DNA from: Paenibacillus forsythiae T98
GTDB taxonomy: Bacteria; Bacillota; Bacilli; Paenibacillales; Paenibacillaceae
Assembly: GCF_000520735.1 (NCBI RefSeq)
Contig: NZ_ASSC01000896.1
Coordinates: 1 to 38,591 of the forward strand
DNA: 38,591 nt
Direction: 5' to 3'
The position numbers and the translations under genes are program-made. The first letter of the stretch is position 1, and every line of letters starts with the position of its first letter. Below the pieces are notes generated by a model. That model was not told where the DNA came from and did not search any database. It saw only the letters and a program-made list of their open reading frames with translations. Of this stretch, positions 3,862 to 16,378 are shown piece after piece.

Positions 3862-4566
3862 ATGAGTATTAAACAACCTTTATTTAATAGCGAAACGTTG
3901 GTAAGAGATATTGTGCTGCAATTTCCCAAAGCGGCGGACTACTTCAAGGCGAACAAAATCGATTTCTGCTGCGGCGGCACCAAGCCGCTTCGAGACGCTG
4001 CGGACGAGCTCGGTCTTGACGCAGGCGCTGTCACCACGGATTTGTACAAGCTGGTGGAGCAGTATCCGGTGCTTGAGGAAGATACCGCGTGGATCGGAGC
4101 GTCGTCCGAAGCGCTGATCGGCCATATTGTGAGCAAGCATCACCGTTATCTCCGCGAAGAGCTGCCGCTGATCGGTCAGAACGTGGCCAAAGTATTTCAT
4201 GCGCACGGCGGAGATTCTCCGCATCTGGCGGAGTTGTACCGTCTGTTCAATGAGCTGAAGGACGAGTTGCTGGAGCACACGGCAAAAGAAGAAGCCCAGG
4301 ATTTCCCGGGCATTCTTGCCTATGAGCAACAAGGAGACAATGAGTCTTTAGCCGCTCTGCGCAAGGCTATTAGCGATTTGGAAGAGGAGCATGACGCCGC
4401 AGGGAACCTGCTGAGACAACTCCGCGCCGTTACCGCCGACTTCACTCCCCCCGAGCACGCCTGCACAACCTACCGCCTGACCTATGCGCGGCTGGAGGAG
4501 CTGGAAGGCATGACCTTTGAGCATGTACATCTGGAGAACAACATTTTGTTCCCGCGGTATCAATAA
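3862..4566 (+). CDS. scdA: Iron-sulfur cluster repair di-iron protein (Ric/ScdA/YtfE)
   Basis: This 234-residue cytoplasmic protein is of the family that repairs Fe-S clusters damaged by nitric oxide or peroxide. The N-terminal DUF542/ScdA_N domain (about residues 8-60) contains the FCCGG motif (NKIDFCCGGTKPL). The hemerythrin-like domain (about residues 85-230) carries the di-iron ligand pattern: HHRYLREEL, HGGDSP, HTAKEEAQDFP, EEHDAAG and FEHVHLENNILFPR. AAGGAGGAG precedes the ATG. The Fnr-type site upstream and the nitrite reductase operon downstream fit a role in protecting the cell from NO made during nitrite reduction. Confidence 0.95.
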   Translation: MSIKQPLFNSETLVRDIVLQFPKAADYFKANKIDFCCGGTKPLRDAADELGLDAGAVTTDLYKLVEQYPVLEEDTAWIGASSEALIGHIVSKHHRYLREELPLIGQNVAKVFHAHGGDSPHLAELYRLFNELKDELLEHTAKEEAQDFPGILAYEQQGDNESLAALRKAISDLEEEHDAAGNLLRQLRAVTADFTPPEHACTTYRLTYARLEELEGMTFEHVHLENNILFPRYQ

Positions 4567-4685: not shown

Positions 4686-4748
4686 CGTGAAATCTTTCAC
4701 TATTGCTGTGACTGCAGTCACGCGGCGGAAAAATGTAAAATGTATAAT
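4686..4748 (+). promoter_or_regulatory. nirB promoter with tandem Fnr-type sites
   Basis: Site 1 is CGTGA-AATCTT-TCACT (4686-4701). Site 2 is TGTGA-CTGCAG-TCACG (4707-4722). A TATAAT -10 lies at 4743-4748, so the start is about 4755 and site 2 is centred at about -41, the class II activator position. Site 1 is exactly 21 bp (two turns) further up on the same helix face. There is no good -35, as expected for Fnr dependence. Confidence 0.75.
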
Positions 4749-4802: not shown

Positions 4803-7231
4803 ATGACAACGAATCGGGAAAAATTAGTGCTGATCGGCAACGGTATGGCGGGCGTCGGCGCGATTGAGCAGATTTTGAAGCTGGGCGGAGCATACGATAT
4901 CACGGTCTTCGGCAGCGAGCCTTATCCGAACTATAACCGCATTATGCTGTCTTACGTCCTTGAAGGAAGCAAAACGGTGGACGATATTATTCTGAATGAC
5001 CGGGACTGGTACAAGAATAACGGCATTATGCTGCACACAGGAACGACGGTTACCCGCATTGACAGAGAACAGAGGAAGGTTATCGCGGAGAACGGATTGG
5101 CGGCCCCATACGATAAAGTCATTATCGCCACCGGTTCCCAATCGTTCATTTTGCCCATCCCGGGCAGCGGCAAGGAAGGCGTCGTCGGCTTCCGCGACAT
5201 TGCCGACTGTGAAGCGATGCTGGAAGCCGCCAAGCAGTACACGAAAGCGGCTGTCATCGGCGGCGGATTGCTTGGCCTTGAAGCGGCGAAGGGACTTGTG
5301 AACCTTGGTATGGACGTAACGGTCGTCCATCTGATGGAAGACCTGATGGAGCGCCAGCTCGATCATACCGCCGCTTCGATGCTGAAAGCGGAGCTGGAGC
5401 GGCAGGGCGTCAAGTTCGCCATGGGCAAGCAGACGGTGGAGCTGACCGGCGAGGAGCGGGTAAGCGGCCTGCGCTTCAGCGACGGTACGGAACTGGAAGC
5501 GCAGTTCGTGGTCATGGCCGTCGGCATCAAGCCGAATGCAGCCTTGGCAAAGGAAAGCGGCATTGAGGCGAACCGTGGCATTGTGGTGAACGACTACCTG
5601 GAAACATCGCTTCCGGGTGTGTATTCCGTCGGCGAATGCGCCGAGCACCGTGGCGTCTGCTATGGCCTGGTCGCCCCGCTGTTTGAACAGGGAACCGTGC
5701 TTGCGAAGCACTTATGCGGCGTGGAGACGAGGCCCTATGAAGGTTCGGTCGTCTCAACCAAGCTGAAGATTTCAGGGGTGGATGTCTTCTCGGCCGGGGA
5801 ATTCATCGATACGCCGGAGCACACGGTCATTTCCGCCAAGGATGACTGGAAGAGAACCTACAAAAAAGTCCTGCTGAGGGATAACCGTATAGTCGGCGCC
5901 GTTCTGTTCGGCGATGTGACGGAAGCGTCCAGCCTGCAGAAGCTGGTGAAGCAGGGCGCGGAGATGACGGACGACATTTATGCGGAAGTTATGGGCACCG
6001 GCTGCTGCGGCGGAGGCGGGACCAAGAAGCCGGCGTCCGTTGAAAGCATGGCCGACGAAGAAATCGTCTGCGGCTGCAACGGCGTGACCAAGAAGACGAT
6101 CGTTGACGCCATTCAGGGTAACGGCTTTACCACCGTGATGAGATCAAGGCCTGCACCGGAGCAACACGATCCTGCGGCGGCTGTAAGCCGGTCGTAGAAC
6201 AGATTCTGCACTACGTGCTTGGCGATGGCTTCAAGCAGAGCGCAAAGACGGGGATCTGCGGCTGCACAACGCTCAGCCGGGATGAAATCGTGGCCGAAAT
6301 CCGGGCTAAGGGACTGACGACGACGAAAGAAGTCATGAACGTTCTTGGCTGGAAGCAGGAGGAGGGCTGTTCGAAATGCCGTCCGGCGATCAACTATTAT
6401 CTGGGCATGATCTATCCGGATACGCATAAAGACGAGAAGGAGTCGCGCTTTGTCAACGAACGGATGAGCGCCAATATTCAGAAGGACGGCACTTTTACGG
6501 TCGTTCCGCGGATGTACGGCGGGGTGACAACCCCGGAAGATCTGAAGAAAATCGCCGATGTCTCCATCAAGTACGACGTCAAGGTCGTCAAAGTGACCGG
6601 CGGGCAGCGTCTCGATCTGATCGGTATCAAGAAAGAGGATGTGCCCAAAGTTTGGGAGGAGCTGGACATGCCGTCCGGCTACGCTTACGCCAAGTCGCTG
6701 CGGACGGTCAAGACCTGTGTCGGATCGCAGTTCTGCCGGTTCGGCACTCAGGATTCGATGGGCATGGGCGCGCTGCTGGAACGCAAATACGAGCGGCTGG
6801 ACTTCCCTGCAAAATTCAAGATGGCTGTCAACGGCTGCCCCCGGAACTGCGCGGAATCATGTACGAAGGACATCGGCATCGTCGGCAACGACGGAGGCTG
6901 GGAGGTGTTCATCGGCGGCAACGGCGGCATCAAGCCGCGGATCGCGGACTCCTTCTGCAAAGTGAAGACGGATGAAGAGCTGGTGGAAATCTGCTCCGCC
7001 GTTATGCAGTATTACCGCGAAACCGGCAACTACCTGGAAAGAACGTCCGATTGGGTGGAGCGCATGGGGCTGGACAGCATCAAGGCTGTCATTCTGGACA
7101 ACGAAGAGGAGCGCAAGGCGCTAGCGCAGCGGATCGATTTTGCTTTGACCCAGGTTACAGATCCATGGAAAAAAATGCTAAGCGACGGCCGGGCGCGCAC
7201 TGCGCTGTTTGACGCGGCGGAAATCCGTTAA
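4803..7231 (+). pseudogene. nirB: Nitrite reductase large subunit nirB, split by frameshift
   Basis: NADH-dependent assimilatory/ammonifying nitrite reductase reduces nitrite to ammonia. The gene is read in two pieces: 4803-6197, and the -1 frame continuing from about 6137 to 7231. The first piece holds the FAD/NAD(P) oxidoreductase (GNGMAGVGA, then the GGGLLGLEAA dinucleotide motif) and the start of the first BFD-like [2Fe-2S] domain (CGCNG near residue 423). The second resumes with ACTGATRSCGGCKP, a second BFD-like domain (ICGCTT, GCSKCRP) and the sirohaem/4Fe-4S ligands (CVGSQFC and CPRNCAESC). Restoring one G near 6137 gives one reading frame of 809 residues, the normal family length, with no other lesion. 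AAAGGAGG at 4787-4794 fixes the start. It could be a recent mutation or a sequencing error. Confidence 0.9.
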
Positions 7232-7257
7232 TCAACCCGTGAAAAGGAGTGACAGTG

Positions 7258-7578
7258 ATGGGAGTAGCAAGACAAACCTATCCCGCTGGCAAGGTGGAGG
7301 AATATCTGAAGCAAATCGGCCGCGTAGTTATCATCAAGGGGATAGAACTGGCCGTGTTCCGTACTTCGGGGGACGAGTTCTATGCTCTGGAGAACCGCAA
7401 CCCCCATCCCAAGGGCGGCCCGCTGGCCGAAGGGATCGTCTCCGGGCATTATCTGTACGATCCGCTGTATGACTGGAAAATCGATCTTCGCACCGGCGAG
7501 GTTCAGGCCCCCGACAAGGGGCAGGCGGCGGCTTATCCGGTCCATGTTGACGGGGATAGCGTTGTTATTGAAATTTAA
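7258..7578 (+). CDS. nirD: Nitrite reductase small subunit NirD (Rieske-like fold)
   Basis: The 106-residue small subunit of NADH-nitrite reductase follows nirB by 26 bases in the same operon. ATG 7258 is chosen over GTG 7249 because AAAGGAG (7243-7249) is correctly spaced for it. The fold-defining stretch GGPLAEGIVSGHYLYDPLYD and DWKIDLRTGEVQAP are typical. The Rieske iron ligands are absent: the usual CPH reads NPH, and the usual CPLH reads DPLY. The protein therefore probably binds no [2Fe-2S] cluster, as in the E. coli-type NirD. It is thought to be needed for assembly or activity of the NirB holoenzyme. Confidence 0.9.
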   Translation: MGVARQTYPAGKVEEYLKQIGRVVIIKGIELAVFRTSGDEFYALENRNPHPKGGPLAEGIVSGHYLYDPLYDWKIDLRTGEVQAPDKGQAAAYPVHVDGDSVVIEI

Positions 7579-7614
7579 GAATACCGCAGAGAAAAATTAG
7601 TGGGGTGCCAGGAC

Positions 7615-8403
7615 ATGTATACGCAAAGTGTGGAAAATATTATTGAAGCGGCGGTTGCCAAACGCGACAAAATGAATGAAAGCCTGCCGCGTTATGCTTT
7701 GGCGGCGCTGCTGGCCGGCGCTTATGTCGGTATCGGCATCATCCTGATCTTAACTTTGGGAGCGCCTCTGGCAGCGGCCAAATCGCCCTTTCAGCCGCTT
7801 GTCATGGGAGCAACGTTCGGCATCGCGCTGACGCTCGTCATTTTCGCCGGTTCGGAGCTTTTTACAGGGAACAATATGTTCTTTACCGCCAGCACACTCG
7901 CAGGCAGAACGAGCTTATGGGATACGATCAAGAACTGGATTATTGTCTTTCTCGGGAACCTTGCCGGGGCGCTGCTGCTCGCCTGGCTGGTCCAGGGGAC
8001 GGGACTGTTTAAGACCGCCGCGCCGGAGCATCTGATCTTCGCCGCAGCCGCTAAGAAGATGAGCCTGCCTTTTTCCGAATTGTTCTTCCGAGGCATTCTG
8101 TGCAACTGGCTGGTCTGTCTGGCGATCTGGATGTCGTCCCGGGCGAAGAGCGAAGGCGCCAAGCTGGTGCTGATCTGGTGGTGTCTGCTCGCCTTCATCG
8201 CGAGCGGCTATGAGCACAGTGTGGCGAACATGACCCTGATGAGCGTCGCGCTGCTGCTGCCGAAGCATCCGGAGACCATCAGCTTGGCCGGTTGGCTTCA
8301 CAATATGATTCCAGTCACCCTGGGCAATATGTTCGGGGGCGGCATATTTGTCGGCATGGCTTACTGGGTCATTTCGCCCGTCCGTTCCGTCCGCAGCAAA
8401 TGA
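7615..8403 (+). CDS. nirC: Formate/nitrite transporter family channel (NirC)
   Basis: This 262-residue integral membrane protein of the FNT family is a pentameric channel for nitrite or formate. Six hydrophobic segments are visible, with family signatures GAYVGIGIIL, AGSELFTGNN and the central stretch SGYEHSVANM. GGGGTG at 7602-7607 suits ATG 7615. As the last gene of nirBDC with nitrite reductase upstream, nitrite is the likely substrate. Formate cannot be excluded, because pyruvate formate-lyase is encoded 5 kb away. Confidence 0.92.
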   Translation: MYTQSVENIIEAAVAKRDKMNESLPRYALAALLAGAYVGIGIILILTLGAPLAAAKSPFQPLVMGATFGIALTLVIFAGSELFTGNNMFFTASTLAGRTSLWDTIKNWIIVFLGNLAGALLLAWLVQGTGLFKTAAPEHLIFAAAAKKMSLPFSELFFRGILCNWLVCLAIWMSSRAKSEGAKLVLIWWCLLAFIASGYEHSVANMTLMSVALLLPKHPETISLAGWLHNMIPVTLGNMFGGGIFVGMAYWVISPVRSVRSK

Positions 8404-8424
8404 CGGTTGAAGAGTGTAACAAAG

Positions 8425-8463
8425 AACGGCAAGTTTCCGGATGGCCCGGGACTTGCCGTTTTA
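8425..8463 (+). terminator. nir operon terminator
   Basis: A perfect 10-bp stem AACGGCAAGT / ACTTGCCGTT (8425-8434 / 8451-8460) encloses a 16-base GC-rich loop and is followed by TTTTAT. Confidence 0.8.
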
Positions 8464-8472
8464 TAGTTTCAT

Positions 8473-8502
8473 AAAAAGAGAAAAAGCGCCCAAGCAGGGC
8501 GC
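8473..8502 (-). terminator. fnr terminator
   Basis: Read on the - strand, GCGCCC (8502-8497), a 5-base loop and GGGCGC (8491-8486) are followed by TTTTTCTCTTTTT. This is a classical intrinsic terminator for the fnr transcript, facing the nir terminator. Confidence 0.8.
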
Positions 8503-8584
8503 CTCGACCACAAAAATAAAAGGTCAATATACACGAACAATTTATGTTTCACTGAGGAAGGAATAGGGTAAAATAGTTGGGATG

Positions 8585-9301
8585 TTAGATTCGGCAAATC
8601 TCGGTAGGACATAGCTCGCAATGGCAAATGTCCTGAAGCATCTCAATATTCTTAATAACAATCATACCGTTCTCGTACTCCACGGCGTCTTTCTTGCGCA
8701 GATCGCTAAGCATGCGGTTAACGCTCTCGCGCGTAGCGCCGATCATGTTGGACAAGTCGGTGTGCGTAATCTTTTTATTGATCAGAATGGCTTCGCCGTT
8801 CTTCTCGCCGTAAGTGTTGCTCAGGCGGATCAGCGTCGAGCAGAGCGCGCCCGGTTTCCCGTACATCATCAGATCGCGGAACTTGGTCTGCGTCAGGCGG
8901 TGATGAATGCCCATCCATTTCATAAAGTCGATGGCAAAATCACAATGCTGGCAGATCAGAATTTCAAGGTCCTTGTGTTCGATCACACCGACCTCGCTTT
9001 CCTCAATCACTTCGGCGGTGAAGCTGTGCTTCGTGCTGAAGAAAGGATCGGCCTGACCGACCATGTCGCCGGCTTGATACATATACAGTATGAGTTCCTT
9101 GCCCTCATCCGTGGATTTGGTCAGCTTGACCCGTCCGCGCTTGAGATAAAACAGTTTATCCGAGTAGTCTCCTTCCCAAAATAAATGAGAGCCTTCCGGA
9201 ACTAACCGTTCTTTCATCGTTACTAGCAGTCTGTTAAAGTTTTGTTCGGAGAAACAGTTAGTATTTCCGTGGGCTTCGATAACATTAGTATGATCTTTCA
9301 T
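8585..9301 (-). CDS. fnr: Crp/Fnr-family oxygen-sensing regulator Fnr
   Basis: This is a 238-residue Crp/Fnr activator, the same length as B. subtilis Fnr. An N-terminal cyclic-nucleotide-binding-like barrel (about residues 15-120) contains VPEGSHLFWEGDYSDKLF. The C-terminal HTH_CRP domain has THTDLSNMIGATRESVNRML. The C-terminal tail CHCELCPTEICRI carries CX2CX4C, the [4Fe-4S] ligand pattern of Bacillus Fnr, and Asp in KFRDLMMYGK (about residue 143) is a likely fourth ligand. ATG 9301 is preferred to ATG 9310 because AAAGGGG abuts the latter. It faces nirBDC, and Fnr-type sites occur before ric, nirB, adhE, pflB and itself. Confidence 0.95.
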   Translation of the reverse strand: MKDHTNVIEAHGNTNCFSEQNFNRLLVTMKERLVPEGSHLFWEGDYSDKLFYLKRGRVKLTKSTDEGKELILYMYQAGDMVGQADPFFSTKHSFTAEVIEESEVGVIEHKDLEILICQHCDFAIDFMKWMGIHHRLTQTKFRDLMMYGKPGALCSTLIRLSNTYGEKNGEAILINKKITHTDLSNMIGATRESVNRMLSDLRKKDAVEYENGMIVIKNIEMLQDICHCELCPTEICRI

Positions 9302-9349
9302 AATCGACATCCCCTTTATTCCCTCAGTTTTTCAATAAATTTTAAATTA

Positions 9350-10322: not shown

Positions 10323-12944
10323 ATGGCAGTGAAGAATGAAGTGGCCGCCCAAGTGAAACAACCTACCGCTGAAGAGTATATTCAGACATTGGTAGATAAA
10401 GCGAAGAAAGCTCAAGAAGCTTTCATGGCTCTGGACCAGGAGCAAGTCGACAAAATCGTTCATGCTATGGCGCTGGCCGGACTTGACAAGCATATGTACC
10501 TGGCAAAGCTGGCGGTTGAAGAAACCGGCCGCGGCGTTTACGAAGACAAGATCACAAAGAATATCTTTGCTACAGAATATATTTACCACGGCATCAAATA
10601 TGACAAAACAGTAGGTGTTATCGAAGACAACCCTTACGACAGCTTCCAAAAAATTGCCGAGCCGGTCGGAATCGTTATGGGCATCACACCGGTAACCAAC
10701 CCAACATCCACCACGATGTTTAAAGCATTGATCGCCGCCAAGACGCGCAATCCTATTATATTCGGTTTCCACCCGTCTGCGCAAGAGTGTAGTGCTGCAG
10801 CCGCAAAAATTTTGCATGATGCCGCTGTCAAAGCGGGCGCACCTGAGAACTGCATCCAATGGATCGAACAGCCGACAATGGATAAAACCAACGCGCTGAT
10901 GAATAATGATGGTGTGGCTCTGATCCTGGCTACAGGCGGGTCTGCAATGGTTAAAGCGGCATACAGCTGCGGCAAACCGGCTCTTGGCGTAGGCCCTGGT
11001 AACGTTCCGGCCTTCATTGAAAAGAGCGCCGACATCGACCAAGCGGTTAATGATATTATTCTTTCGAAAACATTCGACAACGGCATGATCTGCGCATCCG
11101 AGCAGGCCATCATCATTGAAGAGCCGATCTTCGACCAAGTGAAGAAGAAACTGATCGCCAACGGCTGCTACTTTGTTAACAAGGAAGAAGCCGCCAAGCT
11201 GACCAACGGCGCGATGAACGTGGAGAAATGCGCGGTTAACCCGGTAATCGTCGGTCAATCCGCTGTGAAAATTGCTGAAATGTGCGGAATCCAAGTGCCT
11301 GCAGGCACCAAAATCCTGATCGCCGAACTCGAAGGCGTGGGCACGAAATACCCGCTGTCGGCCGAGAAGCTGAGCCCGGTTCTGGCTTGCTACAAAGTTA
11401 AGAATGCGGACCAAGGCATCGAGCGCGCGGCTCAAGTGGTTGAATTCGGAGGCATGGGCCACAGCTCCGCTATCCACTCGAACAACGAAGAAGTAATCAT
11501 GAAGTTCTCCAACCGTCTGCAAACCGGACGTATTCTTGTAAATTCGCCTTCCACTCATGGTGCGATCGGCGACATCTACAACACGAACATCCCTTCGCTG
11601 ACTCTGGGCTGCGGATCTTATGGCCGCAACTCGGTATCGCAAAACGTTACTGCTATTAACTTGATCAACGTGAAAAGGGTGAATCGTCGTATCGTGAATA
11701 TGCAATGGTTTAAGCTGCCGGAGAAGATCTACTTTGAAAAAGGCGCAACCCAATACCTGGCCAAAATGCCTGACATCACTCGTGTAGCAATTATCACCGA
11801 CCCGATGATGGTTAAACTGGGCTATGTGGAAAGAGTTGAGCACTACCTGCGTCAACGCCAAACTCCTGTAGCAATCGAAGTGTTCTCGGAAGTTGAACCG
11901 GACCCATCGACAACTACGGTTGAAAAAGGTACTGCCATGATGAACAGATTCCAGCCGGACTGCATCATCGCACTTGGCGGCGGTTCCTCTATGGATGCTG
12001 CCAAAGGAATGTGGCTGTTCTACGAACATCCGGATGCTGACTTTGATGGTCTGAAGCAAAAATTCATGGATATCCGTAAACGGGTCTATAAATTCCCGAA
12101 ACTGGGCATTAAAGCGAAATTTGTTGCAATCCCGACAACTTCGGGTACGGGTTCGGAAGTAACCTCCTTCGCGGTTATTACCGACAAAACAACTACTCCG
12201 AATACGAAGTATCCGCTTGCCGATTATGAGCTTACTCCTGACATAGCTATCATTGATCCGGAATTCGTATACAGCCTGCCGAGAACAGCTGTTGCCGATA
12301 CAGGTATGGACGTGCTGACACATGCGATTGAAGCCTATGTATCCATTCTGGCAAGCGACTATTCCGATGGTCTGGCTATCAAAGCTATCCAACTGGTATT
12401 CCAATATCTGGAGAAGTCTGCACTGGAAGCCGACAAGCTTGCCCGCGAGAAAATGCACAATGCATCGACGCTGGCCGGTATGGCCTTTGCCAACGCGTTC
12501 CTGGGAATCAACCACAGCTTGGCGCACAAATGGGGCGGTCAATATCACACTCCTCATGGACGCACCAACGCTATTCTGCTGCCGCACGTTATCCGCTACA
12601 ATGCGAAGAAACCTTCGAAGTTCGCTTCGTTCCCGAAATATTCGCACTTTGTGGCTGACGAGCGCTACGCTGAAATCGCCCGTATTCTGGGACTGCCGGC
12701 TCGTACTACCGAAGAAGGTATCAACAGCCTGATCAACGCCATTCGTGAGTTGAACAAAAAACTGGGTATCGAAGATTCCTTCCAGCAACTGGGCATCGAT
12801 CCGAAGGATTTCGAAGCCAACGTAGATTACCTGGCTGATAAGGCCTTCGAAGACCAGTGCACAACTGCCAATCCGAAGCTGCCGCTGGTAAGCGAACTTG
12901 CCGACGTATATCGCAATGCTTTCTATGGCAAATTTGACAACTAA
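10323..12944 (+). CDS. adhE: Bifunctional acetaldehyde-CoA/alcohol dehydrogenase AdhE
   Basis: The 873-residue fermentative enzyme converts acetyl-CoA to acetaldehyde to ethanol with two NADH, restoring NAD+ under anoxia. Residues about 15-440 form the acetylating aldehyde dehydrogenase domain with the catalytic Cys257 in FDNGMICASEQ. From about 455 on is the iron-containing alcohol dehydrogenase domain, with the NAD motif GGGSSMDAAKGMW and metal-ligand regions VLTHAIEAYVS and GINHSLAHKWGGQYHTPHG. Length is normal, and AGGAGG precedes the ATG. AdhE polymerises into spirosomes in other bacteria. The upstream Fnr/Rex-type site and pflBA downstream place it in the anaerobic fermentation block. 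Confidence 0.97.
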   Translation: MAVKNEVAAQVKQPTAEEYIQTLVDKAKKAQEAFMALDQEQVDKIVHAMALAGLDKHMYLAKLAVEETGRGVYEDKITKNIFATEYIYHGIKYDKTVGVIEDNPYDSFQKIAEPVGIVMGITPVTNPTSTTMFKALIAAKTRNPIIFGFHPSAQECSAAAAKILHDAAVKAGAPENCIQWIEQPTMDKTNALMNNDGVALILATGGSAMVKAAYSCGKPALGVGPGNVPAFIEKSADIDQAVNDIILSKTFDNGMICASEQAIIIEEPIFDQVKKKLIANGCYFVNKEEAAKLTNGAMNVEKCAVNPVIVGQSAVKIAEMCGIQVPAGTKILIAELEGVGTKYPLSAEKLSPVLACYKVKNADQGIERAAQVVEFGGMGHSSAIHSNNEEVIMKFSNRLQTGRILVNSPSTHGAIGDIYNTNIPSLTLGCGSYGRNSVSQNVTAINLINVKRVNRRIVNMQWFKLPEKIYFEKGATQYLAKMPDITRVAIITDPMMVKLGYVERVEHYLRQRQTPVAIEVFSEVEPDPSTTTVEKGTAMMNRFQPDCIIALGGGSSMDAAKGMWLFYEHPDADFDGLKQKFMDIRKRVYKFPKLGIKAKFVAIPTTSGTGSEVTSFAVITDKTTTPNTKYPLADYELTPDIAIIDPEFVYSLPRTAVADTGMDVLTHAIEAYVSILASDYSDGLAIKAIQLVFQYLEKSALEADKLAREKMHNASTLAGMAFANAFLGINHSLAHKWGGQYHTPHGRTNAILLPHVIRYNAKKPSKFASFPKYSHFVADERYAEIARILGLPARTTEEGINSLINAIRELNKKLGIEDSFQQLGIDPKDFEANVDYLADKAFEDQCTTANPKLPLVSELADVYRNAFYGKFDN

Positions 12945-13227: not shown

Positions 13228-15489
13228 ATGTCGGTGATTGAAAGAGAAGTACAAGAAGTTAAGTCGGGATGGCGTGGATTTGTAAGCGGCAAGTGGACTA
13301 AGCATGTCAATGTCAATGATTTCATCGAGAAGAACATCAAGCCTTATGAAGGAAGTGAAGATTTCCTCGTAGGTCCTACTAGCAACACTAACGAATTGTG
13401 GAAAATCATTTCCCAATTGAGCAAAGAAGAAAGAGAAAAGGGCGGCGTATGGGATGTAGACCTTAACACGGTTTCCACAATCGTATCCCACCAACCGGGT
13501 TATATCGATAAAGAAAAGGAACAAATCGTTGGCGTTCAAACGGATGCTCCTTTCAAACGTTCCATTCAACCTTTCGGCGGCATCAAGATGATGATCGACG
13601 CTTGCAAAGCCTATGGCTTCGAGCTTCCGAGCAGCATTGTTGACATGTTTACGAATATTCGCAAAACGCATAACCAAGGCGTGTTTGATGCATATACAAG
13701 CGATATGAGAGCTGCCCGCAGAGCAGGTATCATTACTGGTCTTCCGGATGCTTACGGCCGCGGCCGTATTATCGGCGACTATCGCCGTGTGGCTCTGTAT
13801 GGTATCGACTTCCTGATTAAAGCGAAGAAACAAGATCTACTTAACCTTGAAGTGGATTCCATGAGCGAAAGCGTCATTCGTCTTCGCGAAGAGCTGTCGG
13901 AGCAAATTCGCGCCCTGGGAGAATTGAAAGAAATGGCCGCAATGCACGGCTTTGATATTTCCAGACCTGCGAACACTGCTAAAGAAGCCTTCCAATGGGT
14001 ATACTTCGGTTACCTGGCTGCAATCAAGGAACAAAACGGCGCTGCAATGTCCCTCGGACGTGTATCTTCCTTCCTGGATATCTACGTTCAACGTGACGTT
14101 GAAGAAGGTAATCTGACTGAAGAACAAGCACAAGAGCTTGTTGACCATTTCGTTATGAAACTGCGTATCGTTAAATTCCTTCGTACTCCTGAGTACAACG
14201 ACTTGTTCTCCGGTGACCCTACTTGGGTAACAGAATCCATCGGCGGTATGGCCGTAGACGGAAGAACTCGCGTTACGAAGAACAGCTTCCGTTTCTTGCA
14301 CACTCTGTACAATCTGGGACCGGCTCCGGAACCGAACCTGACTGTTCTGTGGTCTGAGAAGCTTCCTGAAGGATTTAAGAAATATTGCGCCAAAGTATCC
14401 ATCGAGACCAGCTCGATCCAATATGAAAATGACGACCTGATGCGTCCGATCTATGGCGACGACTACGGTATTGCTTGCTGCGTATCTGCAATGCGCATCG
14501 GTAAACAAATGCAGTTCTTCGGCGCACGCGCCAACTTGGCTAAAGCTCTGCTGTACGCTATCAACGGTGGTGTGGATGAGAAATCCGGCGTTCAAGTTGG
14601 ACCTGAATATCCGCGCATTACTTCTGAAGTGCTCGATTACAACGAAGTAATCAACCGCTTCAAACCGATGATGGAATGGCTTGCTAAGACTTACCTCAAT
14701 ACTCTTAACGTTATCCATTACATGCATGATAAATATTCCTACGAACGCATTGAAATGGCGCTGCATGACCGCGACATTCTGCGTACGATGGCTTGCGGTA
14801 TCGCCGGTCTGTCGGTTGCTGCCGACTCTCTGAGCGCAATCAAATACGCTAAGGTTAAACCGATCCGCAACGAACAAGGCATTGCAGTGGACTTCGAAAT
14901 CGAAGGGGAATTCCCTTGCTACGGCAACAATGATGATGCTGTTGACAGCATCGCAGTTGAACTGGTTGAATCCTTCATGAACATGATCCGTAAGCATCAA
15001 ACTTATCGTGATTCCCTGCCAACTCAATCGATTCTGACGATTACTTCGAACGTTGTGTACGGCAAGAAGACCGGTACTACACCTGATGGACGTAAAAAAG
15101 GCGAACCGTTCGCACCTGGTGCTAACCCAATGCACGGACGCGACAAGAAGGGTGCTCTTGCTTCCCTGAGTTCCGTAGCTAAACTGCCTTATGAAGACAG
15201 CCTTGATGGTATTTCCAATACCTTCTCGATCGTTCCTAAGGCACTGGGTAAAGATGAAGAGGGACGTAAATCGAACCTTGTATCCATGATGGACGGATAC
15301 TTCCACAGCAAAGGCCATCACCTGAACGTTAACGTATTTAACCGTGAACAACTGCTGGATGCCATGGAACATCCTGAGAACTATCCGCAGCTCACCATTC
15401 GCGTCTCCGGTTATGCCGTTAACTTCATCAAGCTGAGCCGTGAGCAACAACTTGATGTTATTAACCGTACTTTCCACGGTTCGATGTAA
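13228..15489 (+). CDS. pflB: Formate C-acetyltransferase (pyruvate formate-lyase)
   Basis: This 753-residue glycyl-radical enzyme converts pyruvate and CoA to acetyl-CoA and formate. The paired catalytic cysteines are Cys417-Cys418 in [18 protein letters not shown], and the radical glycine is Gly728 in [11 protein letters not shown]. Length and motif positions match E. coli PflB (Cys418/419, Gly734). The enzyme is oxygen-labile and needs PflA, encoded next door. TGGAGG lies 9 bases before the ATG. The acetyl-CoA made feeds AdhE. Codon choice is strongly biased (CGT, CTG, GGT, AAC), as in a highly expressed gene. Confidence 0.98.
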
Positions 15490-15640: not shown

Positions 15641-16378
15641 ATGATTAAAGGCCGTATCCACTCCATGGAAACCTTCGGAACCGTAGACGGGCCTGGTATC
15701 CGTTTCATCTTGTTTATGCAAGGGTGCTTAATGAAATGTCAATACTGTCATAACCCGGACACATGGGCTTTAGACGAGGGCAAAGAAGTGACAGTCGAGG
15801 AAGTTCTCAAGGAAATCGAACCTTACCTTAATTACTACCGTACCTCCGGTGGAGGCTTGACTGTATCTGGCGGAGAACCGACGCTTCAAGCCAAGTTCGT
15901 TGAACAGCTGTTCACTGAAGTCAAGAAGCGTTGGAATTTGCATACGACTCTGGATTCCAATGGTTATAACGAGGGAGATAAAATTACGGAGCTTCTCAAT
16001 GTTACGGATCTTGTGCTTCTTGATCTCAAGCATATTGATGACGAGGCTCATATCAAGCTTACCGGCAAGTCGAATGAGCGCACATTGAAGCTGGCTCGCT
16101 GGCTGTCCGACCATGGACGCAAGATGTGGGTCCGTCTTGTCTATGTGCCCGGAATTCATGAGAAGGAAGAAGACCTGCTCAATTTGGGCCGTTTTATTGG
16201 AACCTTAAATGGGGTAGAGAAGTTTGAGATTTTGCCGTATCACCAAATGGGGGTCTACAAGTGGGAAGTGCTTGGCAAGCCTTACGAACTGGAGGGCGTA
16301 CCTAGTCCTTCCGATGAAGAAGTGCAGCGGGCTTACCGGCTTATCGAAGAAGGACGTCAGCAGACAGCTCTTGTATAA
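15641..16378 (+). CDS. pflA: Pyruvate formate-lyase-activating enzyme (radical SAM)
   Basis: This 245-residue radical SAM enzyme abstracts hydrogen from the PflB radical glycine, using S-adenosylmethionine and a [4Fe-4S] cluster. The CX3CX2C cluster motif is Cys29, Cys33, Cys36 (GCLMKCQYCHNPDTW). SAM-binding stretches include TVSGGEPTLQ and LLDLKHI. AAAGGATG is well spaced from the ATG. It lies 151 bases after pflB with a hairpin between, so it is probably the second gene of a pflBA operon. Formate could leave by the FNT channel encoded upstream. Confidence 0.97.
   Translation: MIKGRIHSMETFGTVDGPGIRFILFMQGCLMKCQYCHNPDTWALDEGKEVTVEEVLKEIEPYLNYYRTSGGGLTVSGGEPTLQAKFVEQLFTEVKKRWNLHTTLDSNGYNEGDKITELLNVTDLVLLDLKHIDDEAHIKLTGKSNERTLKLARWLSDHGRKMWVRLVYVPGIHEKEEDLLNLGRFIGTLNGVEKFEILPYHQMGVYKWEVLGKPYELEGVPSPSDEEVQRAYRLIEEGRQQTALV

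Follow-up and report, generated by a model that had tools for sequence, protein, structure and literature searches.

NirB is an NADH-dependent siroheme enzyme that converts nitrite to ammonium. Large subunits of this type (NirB/NasD) are described by the NCBIfam NirB model TIGR02374, and their domain set consists of an oxidoreductase part, two BFD domains, a ferredoxin-like half domain and a siroheme/4Fe-4S domain. A nirB gene read in two frames can be set beside two kinds of described system: genes with programmed −1 frameshifting, of which dnaX is an example, and genes broken by a single base, either as frameshifted genes of draft genomes (errors) or as recent pseudogenes. The strain considered here, Paenibacillus forsythiae T98, is listed as P. 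forsythia T98 (5.19 Mb, 53.0% G+C, draft) in an article which, in the part available to us, names it together with P. sophorae S27 (8.52 Mb) as a strain with anf genes and places it among eleven new genomes obtained by SOAPdenovo 1.04 assembly of Illumina paired-end reads (PMC3961195). The assembly that we used comprises 895 contigs and 5.08 Mb, is 91.92% complete and 4.77% contaminated, and carries anfG. One of its contigs, C895, is the window, by which we mean the whole 38,591-nucleotide stretch of DNA analysed. In the portions of the literature accessible to us on nirB frameshifts in Paenibacillus and on P. forsythiae with nitrate or nitrite, we found no description of this gene and no nitrate phenotype for the species.

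A single-base break in the nirB reading frame

The nirB gene of the window (4803-7231) has its reading frame cut in two by one base too few. This is an isolated single-base frame break, and the nirBDC operon is ordinary in other respects. The features at and around the gene are as follows.

3862-4566: ScdA/RIC-type (YtfE-like) di-iron protein gene, directly upstream of nirB
4707-4722, forward strand: FNR/CRP-like palindrome upstream of nirB, pattern TGTGA-N6-TCAC[AG]
4803-6197, forward strand: nirB first frame, with the NAD(P)H/FAD part, the N-terminal half of BFD domain 1 and a closing stretch foreign to the family
6134-6138, forward strand: junction with one base fewer than in relatives and a change of frame, placed by alignment and spacing against relatives
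6137-7231, forward strand: nirB second frame, with the second half of BFD domain 1, BFD domain 2, the ferredoxin-like half domain and the siroheme/4Fe-4S domain
7249-7578, forward strand: nirD, small subunit (Rieske-like), Pfam Rieske_2
7615-8403, forward strand: nirC, formate/nitrite transporter, Pfam Form_Nir_trans
8585-9310, reverse strand: Crp/Fnr-family regulator
10323-12944: AdhE-type dehydrogenase
13228-15489: pyruvate formate-lyase
15641-16378: radical-SAM activase-like gene

As a sequence-only reading of this DNA had proposed, ORF translation shows that the first frame is in-family up to about position 6136 and then runs through a foreign tail, from about 6137, to a stop at 6195-6197. 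The −1 frame from 6137 reads DEIKACTGATRSCGGCKP, which is in-family and corresponds to the expected BFD-like segment, and it stays open to the normal end of the gene at 7231. The 809 residues that the same reading gave for the repaired product agree with the 809-residue ORF of a relative (G018). Together the two pieces cover positions 1-793 of the 794 in TIGR02374 (1-441 before the break, 442-793 after it) with zero positions lost. The gene thus resembles NirB/NasD large subunits in its coverage of the model and in having nirD and nirC downstream, and differs from them in the frame break at model position 441/442; scored as two pieces, at 537.9 and 471.3 bits, it yields no single protein above the curated cut-off of 578.35. 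By Pfam the entire NirB domain set is present in the DNA, with BFD domain 1 divided between the frames: the first piece carries the oxidoreductase domains and positions 1-24 of the 50 in Fer2_BFD, and the second carries BFD domain 2 in full, together with the ferredoxin-like half domain and the siroheme/4Fe-4S domain. The NirB of a P. zanthoxyli relative has two whole BFD domains. A PDB search with the second piece matched other sulfite/nitrite reductases only.

The break has a direct consequence for the first BFD domain. The motif CxC-x32-CxxC is constant in 100 of the 100 forward-strand relative loci, and in the window the break separates its two ends, leaving CxC in the first piece and CxxC in the second. 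Because the break falls between the two cysteine pairs, neither nirB product carries the first BFD [2Fe-2S] site, and the initial claim that all catalytic ligands are kept therefore holds for the DNA but fails for the products. Translation in the new frame could start no earlier than GTG 6215, which lies past CxxC, and no Shine-Dalgarno-like sequence was seen by eye before it, leaving no good restart for the second piece. The gene as deposited should yield no complete NirB.

The rest of the operon is as first described. Both nirD and nirC are intact, with their Pfam matches downstream of nirB, and alignment with relatives makes ATG 7258 the probable conserved start of nirD. The pattern of the upstream palindrome is one that we take to be the FNR/CRP consensus, and its function is presumed from this likeness; its half-sites are largely kept in six aligned relatives. 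Judged by the genes that it holds, the window around nirBDC would be an anaerobic gene neighbourhood. As for the di-iron protein gene upstream, an E. coli-type YtfE has been reported, in the part of the article available to us, as an NO-generating nitrite reductase (PMC9052748).

A different departure from the usual arrangement is seen in P. zanthoxyli JH29, in which nirB and nirD are joined in one 917-residue ORF (locus L040, 1648-4401, on contig C542 of G099). About 43 bases are missing between the genes, nirB has lost its stop and ACG stands where nirD usually has ATG, and a Rieske-like domain is matched by Pfam at the C-terminal end. As this genome, too, is a fragmented draft, the ORF may represent either a genuine NirB-NirD fusion or an error.

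The site in relatives and the constraint on both pieces

In a search of the genus, 96 of 100 genomes (that of T98 included) had a nirB match at E <= 1e-100, and 94 of the 100 had one above the family cut-off; the nearest named matches were P. rhizophilus, P. zanthoxyli and P. sinensis. Comparison with relatives' nirB was the check named beforehand for the break. The frame runs unchanged through the site in all 119 relative loci (119/119, a count of loci that are not independent, as they come from two collections with shared genomes and some genomes give two copies), the window being the sole exception. The site spacing in the forward-strand relative loci, for which alone spacing figures are meaningful, is one base longer than in the window; reverse-strand loci were used for frame only. 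By blastn against 110 loci, the window is one base short at the junction relative to each of the best 30 of the 110. A conserved split gene is thus ruled out among the relatives examined, and the disrupting change is, as in a recent pseudogene, absent from them.

Three further genomes have a broken or partial best nirB (loci L240-L242, L244 and L245), each altered in a different place and none changed at model position 441/442.

G043 (C249): gap at model positions 503-525
G061 (C55): begins at model position 151
G062 (C1): frame change at 569/570, ends at 730

When the long genes of the window were compared with those of four relatives, one of which covers part of the window, nirB alone showed a real two-frame match; rows whose first match was below 60% identity were left out of this comparison, and three kinds of match were set aside: those to antisense shadow ORFs, to the G048 nirC ORF with its upstream extension, and to the G099 nirB-nirD fusion (which also spans nirB). 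A collapse or chimera of two nirB copies was considered as well and is not supported, both sides of the break matching the same syntenic copy in each of the 4 relatives compared and the 401 bases around it having a single match in the assembly.

Estimates of dN/dS between the window and six relatives were 0.086-0.103 for the 5' nirB piece, 0.041-0.060 for the 3' piece and 0.072-0.121 for nirD, against 0.040-0.055, 0.035-0.036 and 0.055-0.083, respectively, among three of those relatives. The window values are somewhat raised, but more so 5' than 3' of the break, and there is therefore no sign of downstream decay. Since the relatives are in one frame, nirB is the only broken long gene of the window and the 3' part has not decayed, the break is either isolated and recent or not real. 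This bears out the sequence-only reading, which had named three possibilities: a break of very recent date, an error, or a site subject to recoding or phase variation.

Assembly error or recent mutation

We consider it somewhat better than an even bet that this isolated frame break, in a gene neither split nor recoded, arose as an error of consensus or assembly in a fragmented draft built from short reads. One base would have been dropped in consensus or assembly, and the living strain would have a normal NirB and convert nitrite to ammonium. An error is favoured by the draft quality and by the undecayed sequence. What speaks instead for a real, fresh mutation is that other breaks in the assembly are modest in number and that the site has no homopolymer; in that case the base would have been lost in the strain itself, in nature or in culture, so that no whole NirB is made and the operon has not had time to decay. 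We give this second explanation a substantial chance, short of even. Single-base breakage, absence of decay and absence from relatives are common to frameshifted draft genes and recent pseudogenes, and nothing sets the window nirB apart from either.

Full-length best nirB genes are found in 46 of the 46 near-complete genomes with nirB, which speaks against a true loss, as does the absence of decay past the break. Among genomes in more than five contigs, 4 of 50 have a broken or partial best nirB, versus 0 of 46 among those in five or fewer (Fisher p = 0.07, not significant, the five-contig cut-off having been picked after seeing the table).

To set against this, we used a home-made phased Markov model to look for frame switches in 101 sequences of this assembly, the window among them (672,708 bases in all). 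Thirty-eight of the 101 sequences, all under 3,000 bases, consist wholly of N, and the readable part amounts to 63 sequences and 620,596 bases; the G+C content of the surveyed part is 52.1%. The model detected 28 of 40 simulated deletions at a setting stricter than that of the survey. Fifty-three switches were found. At 40 of these a start codon with a ribosome-binding-like motif lies close to the old stop, the pattern seen in overlapping genes, and the other 13 have no such start, although the ribosome-binding rule was loose (it also passed one switch of contig C730) and two or three rows with longer overlaps are unsure. The 13 comprise the nirB break, six switches in one stretch of C730 and six others; by eye, five of these last resemble normal gene ends, and the sixth, part of a transporter on C311 with only 67 of 364 model positions matched, may be broken. 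A control of 175,001 bases from three relatives, itself not clean, gave 11 switches, two of them without a start. With few other breaks across 620,596 bases, the base error rate looks modest.

The C730 stretch (about 6660-9100; L183) shows several frame switches in about 2 kb and could be a decayed gene or a poorly assembled patch. It has no DNA match in 8 relatives, and for this reason it is unusable for calibrating the error rate.

The small number of other breaks in 0.62 Mb of the strain's own assembly places a true recent null mutation close behind an error, which is only slightly ahead. An obvious cause for an error is lacking, since the 401 bases around the break occur once in the assembly and the site has no homopolymer, and both properties of the site count towards a mutation. 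The dN/dS of the 5' nirB piece and of nirD, somewhat above the values among relatives, might hint at weaker constraint. A second nirB, carried elsewhere in the genome by many relatives, could also make the window nirB dispensable. A second intact nirB was found in none of the searchable contigs of the T98 assembly (contigs under 3,000 bases read N), which counts against a true mutation but is not proof of absence, and an assembly gap lies where such a copy would be. In G048, the second nirB belongs to a block at about 3062-14507 of L235. The flanks of this block coincide exactly with two contig ends of the T98 assembly, where C617 stops and C400 begins, and the matches listed within it are to the window's nirB alone. 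The second nirB of this block, probably assimilatory, is accompanied by an ANTAR-like regulator and a cobA-like gene, the names coming from reading the translations.

Recoding, a divided enzyme and the nitrite route

Programmed or phase-variable expression, in which ribosomes or a hypermutable tract restore the nirB frame in some products, would fit a second frame that is the −1 frame, two pieces that both look constrained and an operon that is whole. Like genes with programmed −1 frameshifting, the window nirB continues in the −1 frame, but unlike them it has neither a slippery heptamer nor conservation. Pattern scans confirmed the earlier statement that no homopolymer or slippery heptamer is at the junction: no X-XXY-YYZ heptamer occurs at 6060-6197, no run of at least four equal bases at 6100-6200, and no repeat of at least three units at 6110-6170 except GGG and TTT. 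The lack of a slippery site or repeat tract, together with the cut through a BFD domain, argues against both recoding and phase variation, and the arrangement is found in no relative examined. The initial stance against programmed frameshifting is upheld on the same grounds, and we regard such expression as very improbable.

Fainter still is the prospect of a real break at which low-level frameshifting, in the absence of a canonical slippery site, still gives some full-length NirB; this would account for the undecayed pieces and operon. A functional split, with an NADH-oxidising piece and a siroheme piece made separately and cooperating, has an equally slight chance: the siroheme domain and the second BFD domain are whole in the second piece, but the cut passes through BFD domain 1 between the invariantly spaced CxC and CxxC, and the first new-frame start lies past CxxC and lacks a visible Shine-Dalgarno-like sequence.

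The importance of the break is mainly one of annotation. Should it prove an error, metabolic models derived from this genome would wrongly deny the strain the nitrite-to-ammonium route. A true mutation, if no second copy lies in the gap, would leave a nitrogen-fixing soil strain without that route and perhaps prone to nitrite accumulation under anoxia.
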